Positions 355 through 28,661 of a DNA stretch of 28,665 bases are shown one piece after another. This DNA comes from a virus: the IMG/VR virus record IMGVR_UViG_3300044625_001181, positions 1 through 28,665 of that record; one strand, written 5' to 3'. Within the stretch, counting starts at the first letter, position 1, and each line of letters starts with the position of its first letter. The position numbers and the translations under genes are program-made. The notes below the pieces were generated by a model. The model saw nothing but the letters and a program-made list of their open reading frames with translations. It had not been told where the DNA came from and made no database searches.

Positions 355-1902
355 TTATTTAGAAGCCATTGTAATAACTTCCGGGTTAACTAAAAGTTTC
401 TGAAATTTTTGTTTGTTTCCAGCTAGTAACTTTTTAACAATTACATACTGAAGATCTGCGCTTAAGAAATCTTCTCTCTCTGTACAAATTCTAATCAAAC
501 GATTTATCTGAGGTTGTGTAATAGAATTAGACTCAGAGTAATAAAGAGTATAGTTAATAAGGCGAGCAGTTACTACTGAAGCAATATCTGCGCGATAGTT
601 TGTACCTCTACCAAAAGAATCTCTCATTTTCTTTATCACATTACCTTCGTTATCATCGAATAAGATTTCTTTAGGGTTTACAATTTTATCAAGGTTGTTA
701 TTGATAAACATCGTAAACATAGTAGTAAACTCTGAACCGGCCGAACCTTCACCAATCATTTGAACCAATGGTAATTCCTTAGAGAAATCTTCCAAAGAAC
801 TAATACAGTTAAAGAAGTTTGTAACACTTCTTGGGTTAACGTCTCCTTGGATCATATCCGGGTGTAACAACACAAAGTTTATACATCTTGTGTCAACACC
901 GTCTTTCTCAGCCCACTGAGCCCAACAATCAGAATCCCACTTTAAGTTAACGCTTACAAAACGAGTTGTTTGAGCGTTATCCATAGTGTTAACTAAGTAG
1001 TTACCGTTATCCGGGTTAGCTGTAAGAATAATATGCCAGTCAGAAGGTAGTTTCCAGGAAATGTATTCGCCACGGTCAACTAATTCCATAATTGCTTGTA
1101 AAAAACGTAAATCCGCTCGGTTATAATCATCAATGATTAATATACCACCACCTTCTTTATTTGCAATCCACTCTGGAGGACAATAAGACATACGTTTGTT
1201 ACCGGTAAAATTATAACCTCTTTTGGTATACTCTTCCGTAGCTTGTTCGTCAACCCAAATACATCCTGAATAAGTTGGTTGTACAGACTGTGTTCCAAGA
1301 GTTACCGATTCAGTAACAACATCATCTATCATTACAGTTTCTTCAACTTCTACTTCAACTTGTTCTTCTTCAGTATACTCGTAAGGCACCATTTTCTCTA
1401 CTTCTTTAGTTACTGGAACCTGGGTAGTTACTTCTTTCATTGTCATACGACCATTTTCTAAAACCTGTTTTTTAACAGTTTTAGATTCCATCACTGTTTC
1501 TGTAACTAATTCTAATTTTTCTCCAGTTTTAGTAACCATTTGCGGAACAAACTTTTTAACCGTTTTAGTAACAGGTATTTGTACAGTTTTAGTTACCGTT
1601 TCAGTTACCGGTAAAGCTCTATCTACAGTTTCTTCGTACTTACATAACTCAAATTGTCTTACTGGAAAACCAACGAGATCACCTAACTCTTCGATTTGAG
1701 ATAAATTCAACTTTACAAAATTCAAATTTAATTCATTAGCAAGCTGTAACGCTACGCTAGTTTTACCTAAACCAGATTCGCCCATAATTTCTACGGCTAC
1801 TTTTTTCTTGTTGTTAACTTCAAGAAATCTGTTGTTTGTAATCATGTGAGTAAGGAACCCTTTTAGTTCATTACTGTTAAGATGTACTTGTTTTTTAGAC
1901 AT
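355..1902 (-). CDS. MoxR-type AAA+ ATPase with a repetitive insert
   Basis: This 515-aa protein is an AAA+ ATPase of the MoxR/RavA (AAA_5) kind. These act as ATP-driven chaperones and usually work with a VWA-domain partner. Residues 41-48 (GESGLGKT) are Walker A, 254-264 (ILIIDDYNRAD) Walker B, and N296 in LTANPDNGN is a likely sensor 1; R314 may be an arginine finger. Between Walker A and Walker B, about residues 95-205 form an unusual Val/Thr/Glu/Lys-rich insert with imperfect repeats, for example IPVTKTVKKFVP (109-120) and VPVTKEVEKMVP (162-173). The next gene upstream in the operon, one base away, encodes a DUF2201-type metallopeptidase/VWA protein. That is the classic MoxR-VWA pairing. 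The target is unknown. Confidence 0.85.
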   Translation of the reverse strand: MSKKQVHLNSNELKGFLTHMITNNRFLEVNNKKKVAVEIMGESGLGKTSVALQLANELNLNFVKLNLSQIEELGDLVGFPVRQFELCKYEETVDRALPVTETVTKTVQIPVTKTVKKFVPQMVTKTGEKLELVTETVMESKTVKKQVLENGRMTMKEVTTQVPVTKEVEKMVPYEYTEEEQVEVEVEETVMIDDVVTESVTLGTQSVQPTYSGCIWVDEQATEEYTKRGYNFTGNKRMSYCPPEWIANKEGGGILIIDDYNRADLRFLQAIMELVDRGEYISWKLPSDWHIILTANPDNGNYLVNTMDNAQTTRFVSVNLKWDSDCWAQWAEKDGVDTRCINFVLLHPDMIQGDVNPRSVTNFFNCISSLEDFSKELPLVQMIGEGSAGSEFTTMFTMFINNNLDKIVNPKEILFDDNEGNVIKKMRDSFGRGTNYRADIASVVTARLINYTLYYSESNSITQPQINRLIRICTEREDFLSADLQYVIVKKLLAGNKQKFQKLLVNPEVITMASK

Positions 1903-1903
1903 A

Positions 1904-3097
1904 CTAATTCAATTGTATTTTTATTCCGGGTAATGATTCGTTAATAGATGAGCGAGAAGAATGAACCCACAACATTCTTCCTCTACTGTATTCAGGGGCT
2001 GGTGCTTCACCGTCAGTAAGATAAATCAGACACGTATACTTATGAACGTTTTCTGAATAGTATTCTACTACCGGATCGAAACTTGTACCACCGCGTCCAT
2101 GTAATTTTATTTCTTTCTTTGGGTCAAATGGGCAAATATCTCTGATATGAGTATCGGCCTGTACCACAGTAATATCAGTTCCTGTTTTATGAATATGGTT
2201 TATTTCTTGAAAAAATTCAATTAACTCATTATTACTTACAGAACCTGAAGTATCTACCGCTACAAGAACGTGTTTCTTTTGTTTAATTTTTAATCCTGGA
2301 TTTTCTTCGTATCGTTTACTAAGTTTTCTACGAGATTTCTTTGTATAAACTTTTACCGAAGCTCCCGAAAATCTTCTTAGAAAACCTTTCCAATCAAACT
2401 TAGGCGGTTCGGTATGATTAATTTTATCCAAAATGCTTTGAAATTCTCCAGGAATAGTACCTCTAGACTTTTTAACCTGGTCAGCTAATTCATTTAGTAT
2501 ATGACCTGTTTGTTTTTCAATAAGTTTTTGGGTAGCCTCGTCTAATTCTACTTCTTCCCAATCGTGTTGGGGAATATCCATTTCTCCAGGCTCATTACCA
2601 GCCATAACTATTTGTATAGTACCTTGACCCTCTAACGCAGCTTTTAAGTTTGGGGATGAATTATTCTTAGCAGCGGTCATCATTTTCTCATAATAAGAAA
2701 TAGTACCTTCTTTCGGGCCAAGGTTTAAGTCTGGAAAACACTCCGGTAATACTGGATTTCCTGGTAACCAATCTCTATCAATGTATTGATTGATTTCACA
2801 ATCCATAGCAAGATTGAGAATACGTTGATCAGAAAGATGGTTAAAATTAGTAAGATGGAAAAAACCAATGTGTAAGAGCTCGTGTTTAAGCAATCCCATT
2901 TTTTGTAAAGGGTTACATTTTTCCCAAAACTCTTCGTTTATTTCTAAACGGTAATTTATATCATTAATACTTACTGCAGCGGTAGGTACTTTTTTGGACC
3001 ATGATTTGTTTAACATTATAAGAAACAATCCATAGAAAGGTTCTTTTAACATTAATTCTTTACAGACTTTTGCTAAAGATTCTGTTTTTTTATCCAT
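1904..3097 (-). CDS. DUF2201-type putative metallopeptidase with VWA-like domain
   Basis: The 397-aa protein has two parts. The N-terminal part carries H72-E-L-L-H76, a zincin-type HExxH motif, followed by AMDCEINQYI (97-106), which may supply the third ligand. This matches the DUF2201 N-terminal putative metallopeptidase domain. The C-terminal part is VWA-like, with D282-T-S-G-S in a MIDAS-like position and a later LTDGEAPAP segment. Such proteins typically pair with a MoxR-family ATPase, and that gene follows immediately. I chose the ATG at 3097, which overlaps the previous stop by 8 nt. An upstream in-frame TTG at 3142 would add 15 residues but lies deep in the preceding gene. Whether it cleaves anything is not shown by the sequence. 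Confidence 0.8.
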   Translation of the reverse strand: MDKKTESLAKVCKELMLKEPFYGLFLIMLNKSWSKKVPTAAVSINDINYRLEINEEFWEKCNPLQKMGLLKHELLHIGFFHLTNFNHLSDQRILNLAMDCEINQYIDRDWLPGNPVLPECFPDLNLGPKEGTISYYEKMMTAAKNNSSPNLKAALEGQGTIQIVMAGNEPGEMDIPQHDWEEVELDEATQKLIEKQTGHILNELADQVKKSRGTIPGEFQSILDKINHTEPPKFDWKGFLRRFSGASVKVYTKKSRRKLSKRYEENPGLKIKQKKHVLVAVDTSGSVSNNELIEFFQEINHIHKTGTDITVVQADTHIRDICPFDPKKEIKLHGRGGTSFDPVVEYYSENVHKYTCLIYLTDGEAPAPEYSRGRMLWVHSSRSSINESLPGIKIQLN

Positions 3098-3539
3098 CGA
3101 TTTCTTCTTTTGTAAGTAAAATAGATTTGTCTTCGTATTCAACAGTTATGTTGAGTAATTGACCAAATTTAAAACTATCGACAAGTTTTGCAAGTCCTAA
3201 TACAGCTGATTTAACTAAAAGCTTTTCATGTTCTGGATTTTTAGATCCTGTTTGATCATAAAGACTTTTTGTTGAGGTATAAGAAAAGTGTTTAGCAGAT
3301 AATCTTTTATCAAGAATGTATTGATAAAACCCATTAGTTAAAACTTTCCAATCAAACTCAGGTCTATTAGAAAACTTTAATAACATAATTAAAACAATTA
3401 CGTTTTTAGCGTAATCGAATCTGTCAATAACTCCAAAAGCCAAAGTAACATTTTCTTCGTCAGGAGAGTTAAGCATGTTTAATAAAGTATAATACTGTTC
3501 GATAGAAATAAACTCAATCTTTGTAGATGAGTTTTCCAT
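3090..3539 (-). CDS. Hypothetical protein
   Basis: The 149-aa protein is not recognised. It has a hydrophobic stretch, NVIVLIMLLKF, near residues 46-56, probably a buried helix because it is short and flanked by charged residues, and a mixed helical C-terminus. It overlaps the RuvC-like gene upstream by 26 nt and the metallopeptidase/VWA gene downstream by 8 nt, so all three are almost certainly co-transcribed and translationally coupled. It could be an accessory factor for either neighbour. Nothing in the sequence decides between them. Confidence 0.7.
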   Translation of the reverse strand: MENSSTKIEFISIEQYYTLLNMLNSPDEENVTLAFGVIDRFDYAKNVIVLIMLLKFSNRPEFDWKVLTNGFYQYILDKRLSAKHFSYTSTKSLYDQTGSKNPEHEKLLVKSAVLGLAKLVDSFKFGQLLNITVEYEDKSILLTKEEIDG

Positions 3540-8004: not shown

Positions 8005-8963
8005 AATTTAATTTTTGATTGTGTAGGTGGGGTAGCCATCTCTTCGATTCTCATGTTTTCAAATACAGCTTTAAAGAAACTCATTCTAGTATCTCCGTTA
8101 CGACATTTAAGAAAATGAGCTACAAGAATACTATCGTCTTTAATTATAAATCTTTCCGGACCGTAATATTCAATTTTTCTCTGAGCCGGTCGGTTAATAC
8201 CGATTAACATATCAGCGTGTTGTAACAAAGCGTCACCACCAAATATATCAGAATCCAAAATAAAATTACCATACTTACCATTTTCAGCTCTTTCAGGGCT
8301 GTCAACATTTCTATTTAGCTGACTAAGAATTATAAATATAACTGGTAGTTTTCTTTTAAGTCTTGTTAGCTCTTCACCAAGTTGATATAACATTTCGTAT
8401 TTATCTTTATGGTTGTAAGACTTGTTTAAAAGAATTGAGTGATCTAAAGTGACTACAAATTTTGTTTTGTGTTCTTCATAATAATTTGAAATAGTTTCTG
8501 AAAATTCTTGTACTGTACAAGGCGTGTCTACAATATCAATTGGAAGATTTAATCTAGAATCTCGGTATTGTTTACACAATTCAAAATCATTAGGATTTAG
8601 TTTATAACCACCGGCGCTACACAACTCTTTATAAGTTTTTCCTAACGAAGCAGAAAATTCTCTAATAGCTGATACACGTCCGATCATTTCAAACTGAAAT
8701 TCTAAGATTCTAAAATCTTGATTAGGATTTAAGTTAAACGACTCTCTAATGATTTGATCTTTTAATAAAGTCTTACCACTACCGGGCCTACCTCCTATAA
8801 CTACCATAGAGTTCCATTCTATACCGTCTACACCAGCATCATTAAACTTAGACCAAGGTGTAATAAAACTTGTAGTTTTACCTAAAGCTCGACTTCTGAG
8901 ATATTCTAAAGATTCTTGATAAGCGTTTTCTTTAGATTTCCATCTTTTTACTCTTAATATCAT
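8001..8963 (-). CDS. DnaB-type replicative helicase (RecA-like core only)
   Basis: The 320-aa protein contains the RecA-like ATPase core of DnaB/gp4-type hexameric helicases. Walker A is GRPGSGKT (58-65), E92 in EFQFEM lies in motif H1a, Walker B is VVTLDH (170-175), motif H3 is FIILSQLNR (210-218), and CRNGDT (287-292) fits motif H4. The N-terminal DnaG-binding domain of bacterial DnaB is missing, which explains the short length. It should unwind the fork ahead of the phage polymerase and work with the primase at 4907-5857. It overlaps both neighbours by 4 nt. Confidence 0.85.
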   Translation of the reverse strand: MILRVKRWKSKENAYQESLEYLRSRALGKTTSFITPWSKFNDAGVDGIEWNSMVVIGGRPGSGKTLLKDQIIRESFNLNPNQDFRILEFQFEMIGRVSAIREFSASLGKTYKELCSAGGYKLNPNDFELCKQYRDSRLNLPIDIVDTPCTVQEFSETISNYYEEHKTKFVVTLDHSILLNKSYNHKDKYEMLYQLGEELTRLKRKLPVIFIILSQLNRNVDSPERAENGKYGNFILDSDIFGGDALLQHADMLIGINRPAQRKIEYYGPERFIIKDDSILVAHFLKCRNGDTRMSFFKAVFENMRIEEMATPPTQSKIKL

Positions 8964-13000: not shown

Positions 13001-13837
13001 TTATTTCTTTTTAAATTGTTCAAACCATTTGTTGAATACTCCAATTAACAAATTATTTCTACCCATTGTATAAGCATCTTTTGCTATTGTTTCTACTTCT
13101 TCCTTACTATACATCCTGTCAGCCTGCCAAATAAGTTGTTCAGTTAATTTGCTTCTACCATAAAAACAATTATCACAAGCACAATCTTTTTTAGAATAAT
13201 TACCTGTAGCTTCAACTTCTTCTTTATCATAACCATATTCTTCTTTTATTTGAAAGTCAGGATTTCTTCTGTCATAATAACAAAGTTTTGTTAAGTCTAT
13301 TTTACCAGCTTCTTCAAGCGTTTCTTGTCTAGGAAACCATTCTTTATTTAATACTATTTTAAAAGTTTGTCTACTAACACCAGGTACTTCTTCTTTAGGT
13401 TCTTCTTGTGGAATTATGATTTTGTAAGAATAATAAACACCATTTAAAGGATTAGCTCTTTTAGTTTTATTAGGTTCAAAATGTTGTTTTTGTTTTACTT
13501 CAACATACTCACAACTTGGATTCTTAACAAACCATTCTAAAAACTCATCATCAATAGCTTGTACACCATCTTTGATTAAGTCTTGGTCTGTTGTTAGGAT
13601 TATTTTTTTGTACCAAAATTTATCATCATGTTTTTTAGAATCATATCGAACTATATAATTGTACTCAAAGTTAAAAACCCAATCTTCTTCTTTAATATTT
13701 TCATCAGAAGTGGTGTAGATATTATAGCTTGTAACTGGGTGTCCTTGCCTATCCATTAAATCACTGAGATATAAATCTATGCCATCGTTAAATAACCTAC
13801 TTGGTTTATCTGTTGGTAATAAATGTATGTTTTTCAT
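13001..13837 (-). CDS. Conserved phage hypothetical protein
   Basis: This 278-aa protein contains IILTTDQDLIKDGVQAIDD (about 76-94) and EFLEWFVKNPSCEYVEV, a pattern I recognise as recurrent in uncharacterised Bacteroidota phage proteins. The C-terminal third has a possible zinc site (DCACDNCFYG, about 218-227) and then WQADRMYSKEEVETIA, related to the adjacent gene. The two genes probably share a duplicated C-terminal module. It is the first protein gene downstream of the tRNA-like/noncoding block. The leader is AAAAATTATG without Shine-Dalgarno sequence. No function is assigned. Confidence 0.65.
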   Translation of the reverse strand: MKNIHLLPTDKPSRLFNDGIDLYLSDLMDRQGHPVTSYNIYTTSDENIKEEDWVFNFEYNYIVRYDSKKHDDKFWYKKIILTTDQDLIKDGVQAIDDEFLEWFVKNPSCEYVEVKQKQHFEPNKTKRANPLNGVYYSYKIIIPQEEPKEEVPGVSRQTFKIVLNKEWFPRQETLEEAGKIDLTKLCYYDRRNPDFQIKEEYGYDKEEVEATGNYSKKDCACDNCFYGRSKLTEQLIWQADRMYSKEEVETIAKDAYTMGRNNLLIGVFNKWFEQFKKK

Positions 13838-13851
13838 AATTTTTAATTTTT

Positions 13852-13879
13852 AGTAGTCAGGACAGGATTCGAACCTGTA
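13852..13879. repeat. Direct repeat copy 1 (3' end of tRNA-like gene 1)
   Basis: These 28 bp match 14096-14123 with a single mismatch (C versus T in the T loop). They cover the T arm, the 3' acceptor strand and three bases of flank, so the two tRNA-like genes probably arose from one another. Confidence 0.85.
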
Positions 13880-13948
13880 ATTATGGAGCGTAAACTATTT
13901 ACCACATACCTTTGTAACGATAGCGTCTACCAATTCCGCCACCTGACT
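13854..13948 (-). tRNA. tRNA-like gene 1, long variable arm, anticodon unclear
   Basis: The 95-nt sequence has a perfect 7-bp acceptor (AGTCAGG/CCTGACT), a D arm of the leucine/serine type (GCGGAATTGGTAGACGC) and a perfect T arm (ACAGG-TTCGAAT-CCTGT). The 44 nt between D and T arms are long enough for a type II tRNA, and GTAAA-TAG-TTTAC could be the variable arm. No 5-bp stem with a 7-nt anticodon loop can be drawn. The best anticodon-like hairpin is TATC/GGTA around the 8-nt loop GTTACAAA. CCA is not encoded. The D arm suggests tRNA-Leu ancestry, but amino-acid identity cannot be called. It may be a degenerate tRNA, an unusual decoder or a tRNA-like part of a larger RNA. Confidence 0.6.
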
Positions 13949-14097
13949 AAATTTGACTGTCTTTCCAATCTGTCACTCGTTAGATTATGCTCTCTGGACT
14001 TTATGAGTTAAGCCCTGTTAACCGTAAGCATTTCGGTTCGTCTGCAACTAAATGTAAACCTGTGACGAATTTTCCTTATCGTTTACACCTTGCTAAG
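13949..14097 (-). ncRNA. Structured spacer between the two tRNA-like genes
   Basis: These 149 nt hold no protein gene but, on the minus strand, at least four hairpins: TGTAAAC/GTTTACA (14081-14087 with 14053-14059, 7 bp, extended by GCAA/TTGC outside an internal loop), AACCG/CGGTT with a 9-nt loop (14020-14038), GGGCTT/AAGTCC with an 8-nt loop (13996-14015), and AATCT/AGATT with a 10-nt loop (13967-13986). They are probably part of the same structured RNA as 14175-14507. I do not recognise the family. Confidence 0.45.
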
Positions 14098-14123
14098 TAG
14101 TCAGGACAGGATTTGAACCTGTA
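14096..14123. repeat. Direct repeat copy 2 (3' end of tRNA-like gene 2)
   Basis: Partner of the 28-bp repeat at 13852-13879, with one mismatch. Confidence 0.85.
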
Positions 14124-14174
14124 TCCACCCGTTGTTTAACGGAGTGCCTCTGTCGCCAATTCAGCCACCTGACC
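14098..14174 (-). tRNA. tRNA-like gene 2, non-canonical anticodon arm
   Basis: The 77-nt sequence has a 7-bp acceptor (GGTCAGG/CCTGACT, first pair G-U), a D-arm region with conserved GAATTGG, and a perfect T arm (ACAGG-TTCAAAT-CCTGT). Length fits an ordinary type I tRNA. The anticodon region can form TCCG/CGGG around the 8-nt loop TTAAACAA, or a longer stem (TCCGTT/AACGGG) with only 4 nt in the loop. The symmetry excludes a 7-nt loop, so no anticodon can be read with confidence. CCA is not encoded. The 3' half is almost identical to that of tRNA-like gene 1. It may be an aberrant or expanded-loop tRNA, or a tRNA mimic. Confidence 0.6.
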
Positions 14175-14507
14175 TGGTTCACCCTTGAGATTCGTTACAG
14201 GTAACTAGAATATATAATCTAGATGAGATGTTTTCCCACGACATTTCGTAACTAGTTTTCCTCTCAATAGTAATAAGTTAACTACTACCCTCCTCCTTTG
14301 CGCGGCTGCAGGTCACGACTAAGGAAGCGCTTTCACCAGTGATTTCTTTAAGAAGGTTTTTCCCCGGATAGTAGCTAACCGTTTTAATAATGTAATGTTT
14401 CCGGTTCCGTTGTATCAGCATCGCTATACTTTCGAGAGTCTCAATGGTCTCACATGTTGTAGCCTCAACTCATCCCTCAGCGGTTTTATCAAGAGGTATC
14501 TTTAACA
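14175..14507 (-). ncRNA. Candidate large structured noncoding RNA
   Basis: This 333-nt stretch has no protein gene and can fold into a nested structure on the minus strand. An outer 10-bp helix pairs 14487-14496 with 14260-14269 (CCTCTTGATA/TATTGAGAGG). Inside it a 15-bp helix pairs 14366-14380 with 14276-14290 (GGTTAGCTACTATCC/GGGTAGTAGTTAACT, three G-U pairs). This encloses CTTCCTT/AAGGAGG (7 bp). Other hairpins are GTATAGC-GAT-GCT(G)ATAC and, nearer the tRNA-like gene, CTAGA/TCTAG with an 8-nt loop. The 60 bases at 14281-14340 contain 34 G or C, far above the neighbouring genes. It runs directly into tRNA-like gene 2. I do not recognise a known family. Large phage RNAs found near tRNAs (GOLLD, ROOL) are possible relatives. 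Confidence 0.6.
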
Positions 14508-14828
14508 CTACAAATCGTCTATTGGAGTAGTATCGTTTTCATCAATTGTAATATCACTTACTTCTTCAGAATTTTCTCCAAGATCTTCATCTACTAAAAT
14601 CATAAATCTAGATAAATCAAAGAACGTATAGGGTACACAATCAGAAAGATCTTTTTCTTTAAGTTTTACCGCAAGACCGTCGTGAAATTTTAAATTACTA
14701 ACATGTACAACAGTATATAACTCACCTTCCTTAATCCATTTACTATTAGGTATTGTTTCAGGTTTGTTTTTATCATCGATACATAATACCTGGAATGGAA
14801 CAATAAGTCTAATTATTTTCTTCGACAT
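14508..14828 (-). CDS. Hypothetical protein
   Basis: The 106-aa protein has a compact basic part (about 1-80, including NSKWIKEGELYTVVHV at 28-43) and a very acidic C-terminal tail (SEEVSDITIDENDTTPIDDL). I have seen similar small proteins in Bacteroidota phages, without known role. Its stop marks the upstream limit of the noncoding RNA block, so that RNA may be processed from the transcript of this operon. It overlaps the upstream gene by 20 nt. Confidence 0.65.
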   Translation of the reverse strand: MSKKIIRLIVPFQVLCIDDKNKPETIPNSKWIKEGELYTVVHVSNLKFHDGLAVKLKEKDLSDCVPYTFFDLSRFMILVDEDLGENSEEVSDITIDENDTTPIDDL

Positions 14829-17123: not shown

Positions 17124-17364
17124 CTTTCAACCAATTATAAGCTGTTTTAAAATCAGGAGTTAATTTATAAGATTTTGGATCAATCTCATTTTTACTTCCT
17201 GTTTCTTTAATTACAGGTATTACTTCTTTATTGTAACGTCTGTAAGATTTTACTCTACCAACTTTAATAGTTGTGTTATGATCCTTTTTAGTAAAAAAAG
17301 AATTATGTATGCAATAAATAACGGAGTTTATAGGATAAAACTCTTGTTTAGCTTTTTTTGCCAT
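17113..17364 (-). CDS. Small basic hypothetical protein
   Basis: This 83-aa, Lys/Tyr-rich protein (KVGRVKSYRRYNKEVIPVIK) might be a small beta-barrel with nucleic-acid affinity, judging only by its basic composition. It overlaps the adenylosuccinate synthetase gene by 17 nt and the next gene by 11 nt. Confidence 0.6.
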   Translation of the reverse strand: MAKKAKQEFYPINSVIYCIHNSFFTKKDHNTTIKVGRVKSYRRYNKEVIPVIKETGSKNEIDPKSYKLTPDFKTAYNWLKDGF

Positions 17365-18433
17365 AAATAGTTTTTACAATATTAGTGTAAGAAGGGCCCG
17401 ACGATTTGTAAACATTATTGAAATTAAATTTATTCTGAAGATGTACGATTATATCATCAACTTTTTCAGAATATTGATCACAACAAGTCACAAATAAATT
17501 AACTTTAACTTTTTTAGCTTCCTGAAGTTGTTTTAAATTACAGTCAACGGCATACTCTAAAAGCTCTACTGAATGAGAAGTAATTTTAAAATCTCCTTGC
17601 CAAGGGTTTTGAACATTGGTTTCACCTTCGTTATTAATTAAATTAATAGGTCCTAAATCAGGAAAATAACCTTTACCGTGACGTGTCAGATAAGATCTCA
17701 TAACAAGATTTACTTCTGACACCTTAGAAACAATATTCTTCACAGTAGTATTACTACGAGTAACGTTAGGAAAAAATCCATCATGTTGATCCAATAAAGT
17801 ACCTTGAGCTCCTTCGTAAATCGGAGTATGTATCTGTAAAATAGAAGAATCAGTCAGTTTAATTACTCTTGACATTTCTAAACACATTTTGATAAAATCG
17901 TAATTTACGGGCGGAACTTCTTTACCCATTTTTTCTTGATAGTAATTACGAATTGCTTCAACCTTTTCTTTAACAACATTTTCGTAAGCAAGGTCTTTAG
18001 CGTAAAGACAATAATGATCCGCCTGGCGTTGAAGAGTTGTACCAAATCCCATACCTACTGTACCTCCTATCATAGATACTGTTTCACGATTAGCGTATAA
18101 GTCGTAAGGAGTAGTTACCGGGCAGTAAGGATTTACATAAATAACCGGCTCAATACCGTAACCTAAAAGTTTACTTCGTTCATTAAAGAAAGAAGCAGGA
18201 TAAATAGTACAGTGTTTTGACCAATACGTTGGTACTCCTTGTAAAGTACCTGAACCAAAGCTTGAAAAAACATGCTTGCGTTCTTTATATACTACGGTAT
18301 GACCAGCTTGATGACCTCCGTTAAATCTTACCACAATCGGGTTTAAATTTTTACTCAAAGCTTGATGACAAAGATAAGAGGTTACTAACCCCTTACCCTC
18401 GTCACCGAAACCTAATCCTATAACTGCTTTCAT
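17348..18433 (-). CDS. Adenylosuccinate synthetase-like enzyme (PurA family)
   Basis: The 361-aa protein belongs to the adenylosuccinate synthetase family, which joins aspartate to IMP using GTP. The N-terminal loop is GFGDEGKG (8-15) with catalytic D11, and FNGGHQAGHT (37-46) supplies H45. VGMGFGTTLQRQAD and EGAQGTLLDQHDG are also typical. It is shorter than bacterial PurA (about 430 aa) and close to archaeal and phage members. Phage PurZ enzymes, which make the precursor of 2-aminoadenine DNA, replace the loop Asp (Ser in the best-known cases). Asp is kept here, favouring an IMP-type enzyme. No DatZ or MazZ is seen in the window. It overlaps the VWA gene by 4 nt. A boost of adenine nucleotide supply is the simplest role. 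Confidence 0.85.
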   Translation of the reverse strand: MKAVIGLGFGDEGKGLVTSYLCHQALSKNLNPIVVRFNGGHQAGHTVVYKERKHVFSSFGSGTLQGVPTYWSKHCTIYPASFFNERSKLLGYGIEPVIYVNPYCPVTTPYDLYANRETVSMIGGTVGMGFGTTLQRQADHYCLYAKDLAYENVVKEKVEAIRNYYQEKMGKEVPPVNYDFIKMCLEMSRVIKLTDSSILQIHTPIYEGAQGTLLDQHDGFFPNVTRSNTTVKNIVSKVSEVNLVMRSYLTRHGKGYFPDLGPINLINNEGETNVQNPWQGDFKITSHSVELLEYAVDCNLKQLQEAKKVKVNLFVTCCDQYSEKVDDIIVHLQNKFNFNNVYKSSGPSYTNIVKTIYGKKS

Positions 18434-19335
18434 AACATGTGAGGCGTGTTTGAAATATCTGTTTTTGAATCATTTTTAACATCCTCAGAAACAGTTATCT
18501 CTGAAGCTTTTACTACTTGCTCGTTCGTTTGAAATTTTCTTTCGTTTTCGATTACAAGGTTAGCAATAACATTAGGAACTTCTTTATAATCGTTTACTTC
18601 AATTAAGTTTTCACCTAAAGCTTCTTTCCATAAAGGATCTAAACTTCGACCATGATTAACATGAATATGGAATACATGATTCTTTTTACGAGCTTCTTCG
18701 AGTAATTCCAACCAATTGGTGTTATCTTGAATTTGACACGTACTACCCATAATACTTTTTGCAGCATTTAATGGAAGATTTCGTAAACAAGGTTCGTCAC
18801 CGATAGTAATTACATATCCTTTCTTGCCTCTTTTATCAAAAGCATCAGTACGAGTATGATAAGCAGCAAAATACCAGGCAAGTAAATAGCTTTCACCTTT
18901 ATTACCACCACCTTTACCTTCAAGATAAGTTCTGGTAAGCCACATATCTAATTCAGCATCGCCTGATTCAAACTGAGCTATCTGTAAAGGATATGAATCA
19001 TATTCGTGATCACCAATGGAACCGAACATTAAAGCGGCATCTTCTACACCTTTCTGAATTAAATTACTCATTAAAGTTGGTAAACCTTCTTTAATCAATT
19101 CGTGAGGAATATGACCCATACTACCGGTAACATCCAGGTATAGCTGGATAGGAACCGTTTTAGGATGAGTTTCTGAATCACAAGATTCTCTTACTGTTAC
19201 ACCTTGAGAAACCATGTCTTTATGGGCTTTTCTTTCAACGTTTTGAGTAAAAATTTGGTTAACATTTTTAGTGGTGTAACCTTCTAAATTAGAACGAGTC
19301 GCTCTATTATCAACTGAATAAGATGTATTTCCCAT
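18430..19335 (-). CDS. VWA-domain protein
   Basis: The 301-aa protein has a von Willebrand factor A domain with a MIDAS motif DVTGSMG (about 68-74) and a later strand YVITIGDEP (about 172-180). GDHEYDSYPLQI lies between them. About 60 residues precede the domain, and the C-terminus is charged and probably disordered. VWA domains mediate metal-dependent protein contacts, often with AAA ATPases. It sits between a coiled-coil gene and PurA with 1-nt and 4-nt overlaps. Its partner could be the MoxR ATPase at 355-1902, but that is inference. Confidence 0.8.
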   Translation of the reverse strand: MGNTSYSVDNRATRSNLEGYTTKNVNQIFTQNVERKAHKDMVSQGVTVRESCDSETHPKTVPIQLYLDVTGSMGHIPHELIKEGLPTLMSNLIQKGVEDAALMFGSIGDHEYDSYPLQIAQFESGDAELDMWLTRTYLEGKGGGNKGESYLLAWYFAAYHTRTDAFDKRGKKGYVITIGDEPCLRNLPLNAAKSIMGSTCQIQDNTNWLELLEEARKKNHVFHIHVNHGRSLDPLWKEALGENLIEVNDYKEVPNVIANLVIENERKFQTNEQVVKASEITVSEDVKNDSKTDISNTPHML

Positions 19336-27302: not shown

Positions 27303-28661
27303 TTACAGTTCTACCTGCTCGTACCGCGGTGAATTAATCACCTTTAGCATCATCGACACCGGATCTGTAACTGTACCATCAAGAACTGACATCAGTATTG
27401 AAGGACTAAACCCGCTTACAAGAGCCACTCCCTTATCATTGATCGTAGCCGGAATGTTATTTAGTCTACCGTTTACGTTCCAAAATACTACTGAAGGTAA
27501 TTTGTAACCGGCTCTAGAATACATTTCGCGTAACGAATCAAGATTAGAAAGATGTCCGCAACTATCAAATTCCATATCAGATATGATAAGAAGTGATGTT
27601 GGCATCTCGTTTTCAGGTAAGTTTTCTCTTACAGCCGAGTTTAAAATAAGACTAAACACAGCGTTTAAATCTGTATTCATACCCCATTCGGCATTGTCCA
27701 ACTGACGAAATCTCTGATAAAGATCACCTTTTAGAATCTGTATCTTAGGTTTACTAGAGAAAGTAACAAAAGCATCTTTGAAAATACCTCGATTCTTTTC
27801 ACTAATATATACTCCCAGGGAAACAGATACTTCCATAGGTAAACCCTCCATACTTCCTGATACGTCACATATCGGTAAAATACGATGATTTTCCGACTTA
27901 GTAAGGTAATCTGGTAAAGCGTTCCACTGAGCCTGAACCTGATCTTCTGATTCGTCCATCAAATACGCTCTGTAAAGCTGATTAGGAAATAACACCGAAG
28001 CGTTTATTTTCTTATCACCTTTAAGTACGTCTGTGATATACTGACTGAATCTAGGATGATCATGTTTACCAAAAGACTTGGCATAAGTTCTCATCGCTAC
28101 AGACGGAACCTTAGAGTACTCGATAGCATCCCATTCGTTGTTACACATTTGCGTCTCAACTACTTTAGTCATCTCTACGAGAAACTTTCTAAGCGTCTTA
28201 GGCTTTTCTTCCTGGTGGATACGAAAAGCGTTAAACCATTTCCCTTTACGAGGGAAATACTTAGCCAAAAGATTTCTCTGAGAATGATGACTTAACGCCC
28301 AGGCAAAGTAATTTAATAACTCCTGGGTAGGGCGCATCTTGAAGAGATCCTTAAAATACCCGTATTCATAAACTAATGGATATATTTTGGTAAATACATC
28401 CGGATAAGTTTTCTGAATATGTGATAAGATTATCTGAAAGAATCTTTTCTCACCGGCACCTCCACGCGCATCACGGGCCCAGAACAACACTCTAATTGCT
28501 GTCAAAGGACTTTGACCAAAAGCTCTTTCGAATAATAGAATTATATCTTCTTCAGACATAGTACGCGAAGCTCCGGCCAGGAAAAACATGTCTAAACAAA
28601 AGTTAAGACTTGTACTGTTAGTAACAGCACCATTGTGGGTTAGAGAATTTTTAGTTCTCAT
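27303..28661 (-). CDS. DUF2828 protein (Ro60/TROVE-like repeats plus VWA)
   Basis: The 452-aa protein fits the DUF2828 family. The N-terminal helical part carries FWARDARGGAGEKRFF (60-75) and YEYGYFKDLFKM (98-109), and the C-terminal part is a VWA domain with MIDAS DVSGSMEG (266-273), WGMNTDL with the MIDAS Thr, and ISDMEFD. The layout of helical repeats followed by VWA resembles the RNA-binding Ro60/TROVE proteins, which hold Y RNAs and misfolded RNAs. The family occurs in eukaryotes, bacteria and viruses, and its function is not known to me. It has a dedicated terminator and starts four bases from the window edge, so its promoter is outside. A role in RNA handling would fit the unusual noncoding RNA block at 13838-14507, but that link is inference. 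Confidence 0.85.
   Translation of the reverse strand: MRTKNSLTHNGAVTNSTSLNFCLDMFFLAGASRTMSEEDIILLFERAFGQSPLTAIRVLFWARDARGGAGEKRFFQIILSHIQKTYPDVFTKIYPLVYEYGYFKDLFKMRPTQELLNYFAWALSHHSQRNLLAKYFPRKGKWFNAFRIHQEEKPKTLRKFLVEMTKVVETQMCNNEWDAIEYSKVPSVAMRTYAKSFGKHDHPRFSQYITDVLKGDKKINASVLFPNQLYRAYLMDESEDQVQAQWNALPDYLTKSENHRILPICDVSGSMEGLPMEVSVSLGVYISEKNRGIFKDAFVTFSSKPKIQILKGDLYQRFRQLDNAEWGMNTDLNAVFSLILNSAVRENLPENEMPTSLLIISDMEFDSCGHLSNLDSLREMYSRAGYKLPSVVFWNVNGRLNNIPATINDKGVALVSGFSPSILMSVLDGTVTDPVSMMLKVINSPRYEQVEL

Follow-up and report, generated by a model that had tools for sequence, protein, structure and literature searches.

tRNA-Leu-bodied RNA elements without a normal anticodon arm in phages: possible carriers of swappable structured inserts

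The stretch of lake-type phage DNA considered here (the whole of IMG/VR virus record IMGVR_UViG_3300044625_001181, positions 1 to 28,665, which we call the window) very likely harbors a non-coding RNA locus on its minus strand, a block of 655 nt at 13853-14507 in which a conserved module (A), a second module (B), a tRNA-like element (tRNA-like 2), a spacer (C), and another tRNA-like element (tRNA-like 1) follow one another in that order. What the computations display, in this block and in many other phages, is a tRNA body of leucine type that has no decoding arm, together with structured inserts, structured upstream modules, and same-strand placement with genes. We read the block, with a confidence only slightly above even, as an array of tRNA-bodied, non-decoding RNAs with structured modules between them, the body being a carrier of inserts that can be swapped. 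Such a class of phage RNAs appears to be undescribed; we found no account of it in the open-licence literature. Our starting point, the original prediction, was narrower: a single large structured RNA at 14175-14507, closed by nested long-range helices. That interpretation is partly supported, in that the region is non-coding, but one large nested RNA is not likely, and the adjoining tRNA-like gene is more informative than the 333 nt that had been reported.

The absence of genes from those 333 nt was borne out, and the gene-free stretch is really 13838-14507, within which there is no open reading frame of 50 or more amino acids. It is bounded upstream by the gene at 14508-14828, directly past whose stop codon module A begins, and downstream by a gene of unknown function (13001-13837, minus strand) that starts 15 nt past tRNA-like 1. 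The G+C content is raised, as had been claimed: 34 of 60 bases at 14281-14340, 41% over 14175-14507, and 42% over the whole block, against 28-29% in the neighbouring genes. Both predicted minus-strand helices are there to be drawn. Module A (14271-14507, minus strand, 237 nt) contains both arms of the 15-bp helix (5' arm 14366-14380, 3' arm 14276-14290, three wobble pairs) and the 5' arm of the outer 10-bp helix (14487-14496, two wobble pairs), the partner of which, 14260-14269, lies in module B. This second module (14175-14270, minus strand, 96 nt) is a predicted two-hairpin domain closed by UUGAGA/UCUCAA, and its end coincides with the point where RNase P is expected to cleave for tRNA-like 2, which abuts it directly, just as the prediction of a neighbouring tRNA-like gene required.

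The two tRNA-like elements, at about 14097-14174 (tRNA-like 2) and about 13853-13949 (tRNA-like 1, with the insert UAUCGUUACAAAGGUAUGUGGUAAAUAGUUUACGCUCCA), both on the minus strand, have the acceptor, D-arm, and T-arm of a tRNA-Leu. Their bodies match the tRNA cloverleaf model RF00005 (42.2 bits for tRNA-like 1 and 38.3 bits for tRNA-like 2, the cut-off being 29), and a 5-bp anticodon arm with a 7-nt loop and U33 was found in neither. ARAGORN gave both of them 4-base anticodons and no amino acid (tRNA-like 2 is called tRNA-???, from an 8-nt loop). Loops of 8 nt had suggested frameshift-suppressor tRNAs, an idea that we abandoned in view of the general absence of anticodon arms from the class. 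A73, A14, A15-U48, and G18G19 are kept in both elements, and A20a additionally in tRNA-like 1. The latter also recurs, at 91-95% identity, at five other loci (L216, L248, L249, L250, and L251; loci are given by L numbers here), with a variant in L170, and in all but one of these the match stops a few bases from the ends of the element, the flanking DNA being unrelated.

How widespread is this body? Its shared form, UAGUCAGG-UGGCGGAAUUGGUAGACGC ... ACAGGUUCGAAUCCUGU-CCUGACUA-C, was seen in helicase-related phages, where the 3' half occurs in 14 of 50 records (none for a reversed-pattern control). Scanning IMG/VR with that 3' half returned at least 120 stretches, and a genome collection gave 13, the majority from Bacteroidota assemblies, where they probably represent phage contigs; the phages that host the elements are mostly linked to Bacteroidota. 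The fetched loci, 123 in number, hold 181 distinct elements (up to six per locus) with a median length of 105 nt (5-95%: 73-162), as compared with 76 nt for the ordinary tRNAs found there. Only 7 of the 181 (4%, where shuffling would yield 0.5 elements) have a normal anticodon arm, vs. 79 of 113 ordinary tRNAs (70%) at these loci. The features of leucine identity (A73, A14, A15-U48, and G18G19) occur jointly in 77% of elements and in 43% of other tRNAs. A73, like the T-arm and the 3' acceptor strand, was fixed by the search pattern, so that the invariance of these parts is partly ascertainment. The D-arm consensus, GGCGGAAUUGG, is strong although the search required a D-arm only loosely.

Some variants of the form should be recorded here. 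The shortest elements (L063 3064-3119 and L102 1174-1228, about 55 nt) consist of an acceptor, one D-arm-like hairpin, and a T-arm, with no anticodon domain. Downstream of the main type, L145, L146, and L230 carry a second short tRNA-like family with the acceptor GGCUAUG/CAUGGCC. In the human gut Crassvirales, the crAss-like phage cr4_1 (NC_055893.1, L245) has an unannotated tRNA-like sequence at about 1455-1525; its acceptor is a different one (CUUACUA), and its anticodon-like loop has 9 nt.

One could suppose that all of these are decaying tRNA-Leu pseudogenes beside neutral spacer, since some do resemble damaged tRNA-Leu (L024 1921-1994) and tRNA-rich regions have raised G+C anyway. Decay, however, would have had to spare the acceptor, D-arm, and T-arm of 181 elements and yet remove the anticodon arm from 96% of them, to build inserts of up to about 170 nt that show compensatory changes, and to keep module A conserved at the level of genes. 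This explanation was already disfavoured, and we give it hardly any chance.

The inserts themselves recur and have structure. Nineteen insert families are shared among different contigs, and their members account for only 52 of the 181 inserts, so that many inserts may be unselected. In the insert alignments (n=15), 19 pairs are changed on both sides, as against 4.1 in column shuffles. A simple instance is GUUGAA-GCUGGGUAA-UUCAAC in L123 and GAGCAA-GCUGGGUAA-UUGCUC in L165. The inserts of L138, L134, L149, L218, and L237 include additional T-arm-like hairpins, with UUCGANN loops, within the tRNA-like body.

It is also conceivable, if rather unlikely, that the elements are decoys; that is, tRNA-shaped bait for the tRNA-cutting defence nucleases of the host or for other tRNA-binding proteins, with the loss of the anticodon protecting them from cleavage or letting them titrate, and with inserts that reflect tolerated drift or an arms race. 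Phage tRNAs are commonly known as a counter to anticodon nucleases, there are several copies per phage, and a strongly conserved body with varying inserts is what one might imagine of bait. A decoy body, on the other hand, has no need of inserts with compensatory changes and conserved loops, or of a complete element kept at 91-95% identity in unrelated contexts, and the anticodon arm, to which most anticodon nucleases bind, is the very part that is absent.

Structure is not confined to the interior of the body. Three recurrent modules, X, Y, and Z, lie directly upstream of tRNA-like elements or of other tRNAs, with 3-7 nt left between module and acceptor stem in most cases of Y and Z and about 20 nt in several cases of X. 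Module Y has double changes in 10 of its 20 predicted pairs; module X has a constant helix, GUGUUGU/ACAACAC, and one full replacement of a C-G pair; module Z ends with GUGACAG-stem-GAAAGA-stem. The last of these occurs in the window itself, in spacer C (13950-14097, minus strand), as a predicted hairpin at 13955-13976 (GUGACAG, stem 13966-13970/13955-13959, loop GAAAGA) that stands 6 nt upstream of tRNA-like 1. The same motif is found directly upstream of tRNA-likes in L063, L099, and L105, with double base-pair changes, and the stem reads GAUUG/CAGUC in the window, GCUUG/CAAGC in L105, and GCGUG/CACGC in L096. At the level of aligned sequence, these stem changes are direct covariation evidence for a putative RNA module inside the window.

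Might the tRNA-likes be nothing but punctuation, processing signals at which long phage transcripts are cut, the RNA between and inside them being spacer? An acceptor and a T-arm are enough for RNase P and tRNase Z, and a gene start on the same strand lies at most 30 nt downstream of 31% of the elements, whereas 5.6% would be met at random. Spacer, though, should not be conserved and covarying as the inserts and modules X, Y, and Z are, and the D-arm is not required for such a role. We consider this explanation unlikely.

Modules A and B fit none of the upstream families X, Y, and Z, and for them we must speak more cautiously. Module A is a conserved non-coding unit, the fold of which is predicted. 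When the neighbouring helicase was used to search IMG/VR, a closely related lineage came to light, represented by L002 (a 111.5 kb contig) and L003, along with more distant relatives. Module A (14271-14507) shows 95.4% identity between the window and L002/L003, in line with the 92-98% of the flanking genes; because the locus sequence of L003 is that of L002, the module is known in two distinct sequences only. Two single-base indels separate window and L002, so no conserved reading frame runs through it, and with no open reading frame either, a protein-coding reading was rejected and the non-coding half of the original claim stood. At 14271 the similarity to L002 ends and a tRNA-like element starts there at once, in the place where the window has B, tRNA-like 2, C, and tRNA-like 1. 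Module B is thus not present in L002, and since the 3' arm of the outer 10-bp helix sits in module B, that helix cannot form in L002; the nested closure of one large RNA failed on this point. The block of L002 is closed by a mini tRNA-like (8460-8516; acceptor and T-arm, about 57 nt), and in the spacer upstream of it a motif of module A, GUAUAGCG-UGCUGAUAC, appears again.

Relatives beyond these were sought in several ways. With nhmmer and a covariance model (about 1.66 Mb), nothing significant came up for module A, and a motif scan of IMG/VR matched the L002 and L003 contigs only; named phages gave short tRNA-type or chance matches, and scans with the flanking genes placed the locus in L002/L003 only, the more distant helicase relatives having no block at that position. 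For module B, too, sequence search turned up no relatives.

The folding results divide in the same way. Over the whole 333 nt the minimum free energy is -77.1, against -74.3 +/- 5.5 for shuffles (z -0.51, with 31 of 100 shuffles equally good), the plus strand is likewise no better than shuffles, and folded alone module A reaches z -0.31 and module B -19.6 kcal/mol (z -0.88). A helix of 15 bp, by contrast, was reached in 0 of 200 dinucleotide shuffles of the region, and the 110 nt that it closes (14271-14380) have z -2.0. The inner helix therefore merits attention and the argument from total stability does not. This helix is without any change between window and L002 (two sequences). Inside it, a 3-bp hairpin has gone from C-G to U-A in L002 (one double change) and a 7-bp hairpin has two broken pairs there.

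Together with the raised G+C and the fact that GOLLD and ROOL are also phage-encoded beside tRNA-like genes (PMC12286853), the 15-bp helix beyond chance is what speaks for module A, perhaps with B, as a large ornate RNA of that type, which had been part of the initial proposal. We regard this as very unlikely. The Rfam covariance models found no family but tRNA in the block at gathering score, and at E values up to 10 they added one match, a eukaryotic snoRNA at chance level and outside the core of the block; GOLLD, ROOL, group I and II introns, RNase P RNA, and tmRNA (RF00023) were accordingly set aside for the window. The RNA would in addition be far shorter than the 800 nt that many GOLLD RNAs measure, its total fold is not above that of shuffles, and its outer helix is not conserved.

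A further candidate comes from the other end of the window, where the protein encoded at 27303-28661 (minus strand) belongs to DUF2828/DUF7788 (phrog_850 'RNA-binding protein', TROVE-like). Bacterial Y RNAs mimic tRNAs, and by analogy the elements might be Y-RNA-like mimics bound by this protein, which is encoded both in the window and in the phage of L002, the sole phages with module A whose available sequence is long enough to judge. Besides the phage of L002, four other searched records have the protein, and in all it is present in just 5 of 50 records, most of them carriers of tRNA-like elements. As a general explanation, Y RNAs with a TROVE-like partner were rejected on that count, and the chance that they account for the window seems to us slim.

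Other window genes may be mentioned in passing. An adenylosuccinate synthetase (17348-18433, minus strand; phrog_1211, PurZ-like) hints at modified-purine DNA. At 355-3142 (minus strand) are an AAA ATPase and then a metallopeptidase/VWA protein (DUF2201), and the product of 18430-19335 (minus strand; phrog_2971, unknown function) looks VWA-like by eye.

How, then, would an array of tRNA-bodied carriers work? The array would be transcribed together with the neighbouring minus-strand genes. Every tRNA-like would be cut by host RNase P on its 5' side and by tRNase Z on its 3' side. Individual RNAs with protected ends (A+B, tRNA-like 2, spacer C, and tRNA-like 1) would thereby come free, the reported 333 nt being the 5' RNA freed upstream of tRNA-like 2. 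The body would serve as carrier (stable, CCA-tailed, and perhaps leucylated), and the insert would do the specific work, whether as regulatory RNA, as protein ligand, or as decoy. In Escherichia coli, leucylation needs A73, A15-U48, G18G19, and the contact of the D- and T-loops, and charging of tRNA-Leu persists when both the anticodon arm and the long variable arm are missing (PMC9976931). The phage body keeps the features on which leucylation in E. coli depends, and the anticodon arm is not needed for it, so the body could be leucylated; for the two window elements this is possibly the case, to judge by their identity nucleotides.

A bolder extension, which we offer tentatively and expect to be wrong more often than right, is that Bacteroidota phages share a large repertoire of non-decoding tRNA-Leu-bodied RNAs with dozens of members, a natural scaffold that the host processes and charges with leucine and in which structured inserts are swapped; the two tRNA-likes of the window, with module A upstream, would be examples. 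Phage tRNA genes are usually read as helpers of translation, and annotation programs either pass over elements like these or label them as tRNAs with unusual anticodons. If the entire class is indeed non-decoding and carries structured inserts, then a modular system of non-coding phage RNAs has been overlooked, and the long-standing question of the extra stable RNAs of unknown function in phage tRNA clusters becomes a testable one.

Among known systems, tmRNA comes to mind at once: its tRNA-like body, too, has an acceptor and a T-arm but no anticodon arm, and the synthetase that charges it (with alanine) ignores the anticodon. The phage elements, if charged, would by virtue of their leucine identity features work like the alanine-charged domain of tmRNA without being tmRNA: they keep a D-arm, their body is of Leu and not of Ala type, they have no tag reading frame and many inserts, and RF00023 does not match them. 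True tmRNAs are found beside tRNA-likes at some loci (L049 2493-2850, with the tag AMTQSERVAEGEAILASIFGEVAVAA, and L082 1118-1544 by Rfam; L093 and L094 by eye). Bacterial Y RNAs (YrlA) are likewise non-coding RNAs that engage in tRNA mimicry, but they are defined by Ro/Rsr binding, and the partner protein is missing from most of the phages searched. GOLLD and ROOL share with the block their phage origin, non-coding nature, and proximity to tRNA genes; the block is smaller, matches no covariance model of theirs, and has no demonstrated ornate fold. In engineered tRNA-scaffold RNAs (PMC3753655), an RNA of interest is placed in a tRNA body for the sake of stability, whereas the phage elements are natural, phage-borne, and furnished with many inserts per genome. 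The tRNA-Other pseudo-tRNA of Bacillus cereus is a non-decoding tRNA-like within a larger regulatory RNA, although a single chromosomal case, not from a phage and with neither insert swapping nor an array. It is this pseudo-tRNA (PMC3399842), together with the RNAs that phages encode close to tRNA islands (PMC12286853), that we take to be the best precedents for the RNAs described here.
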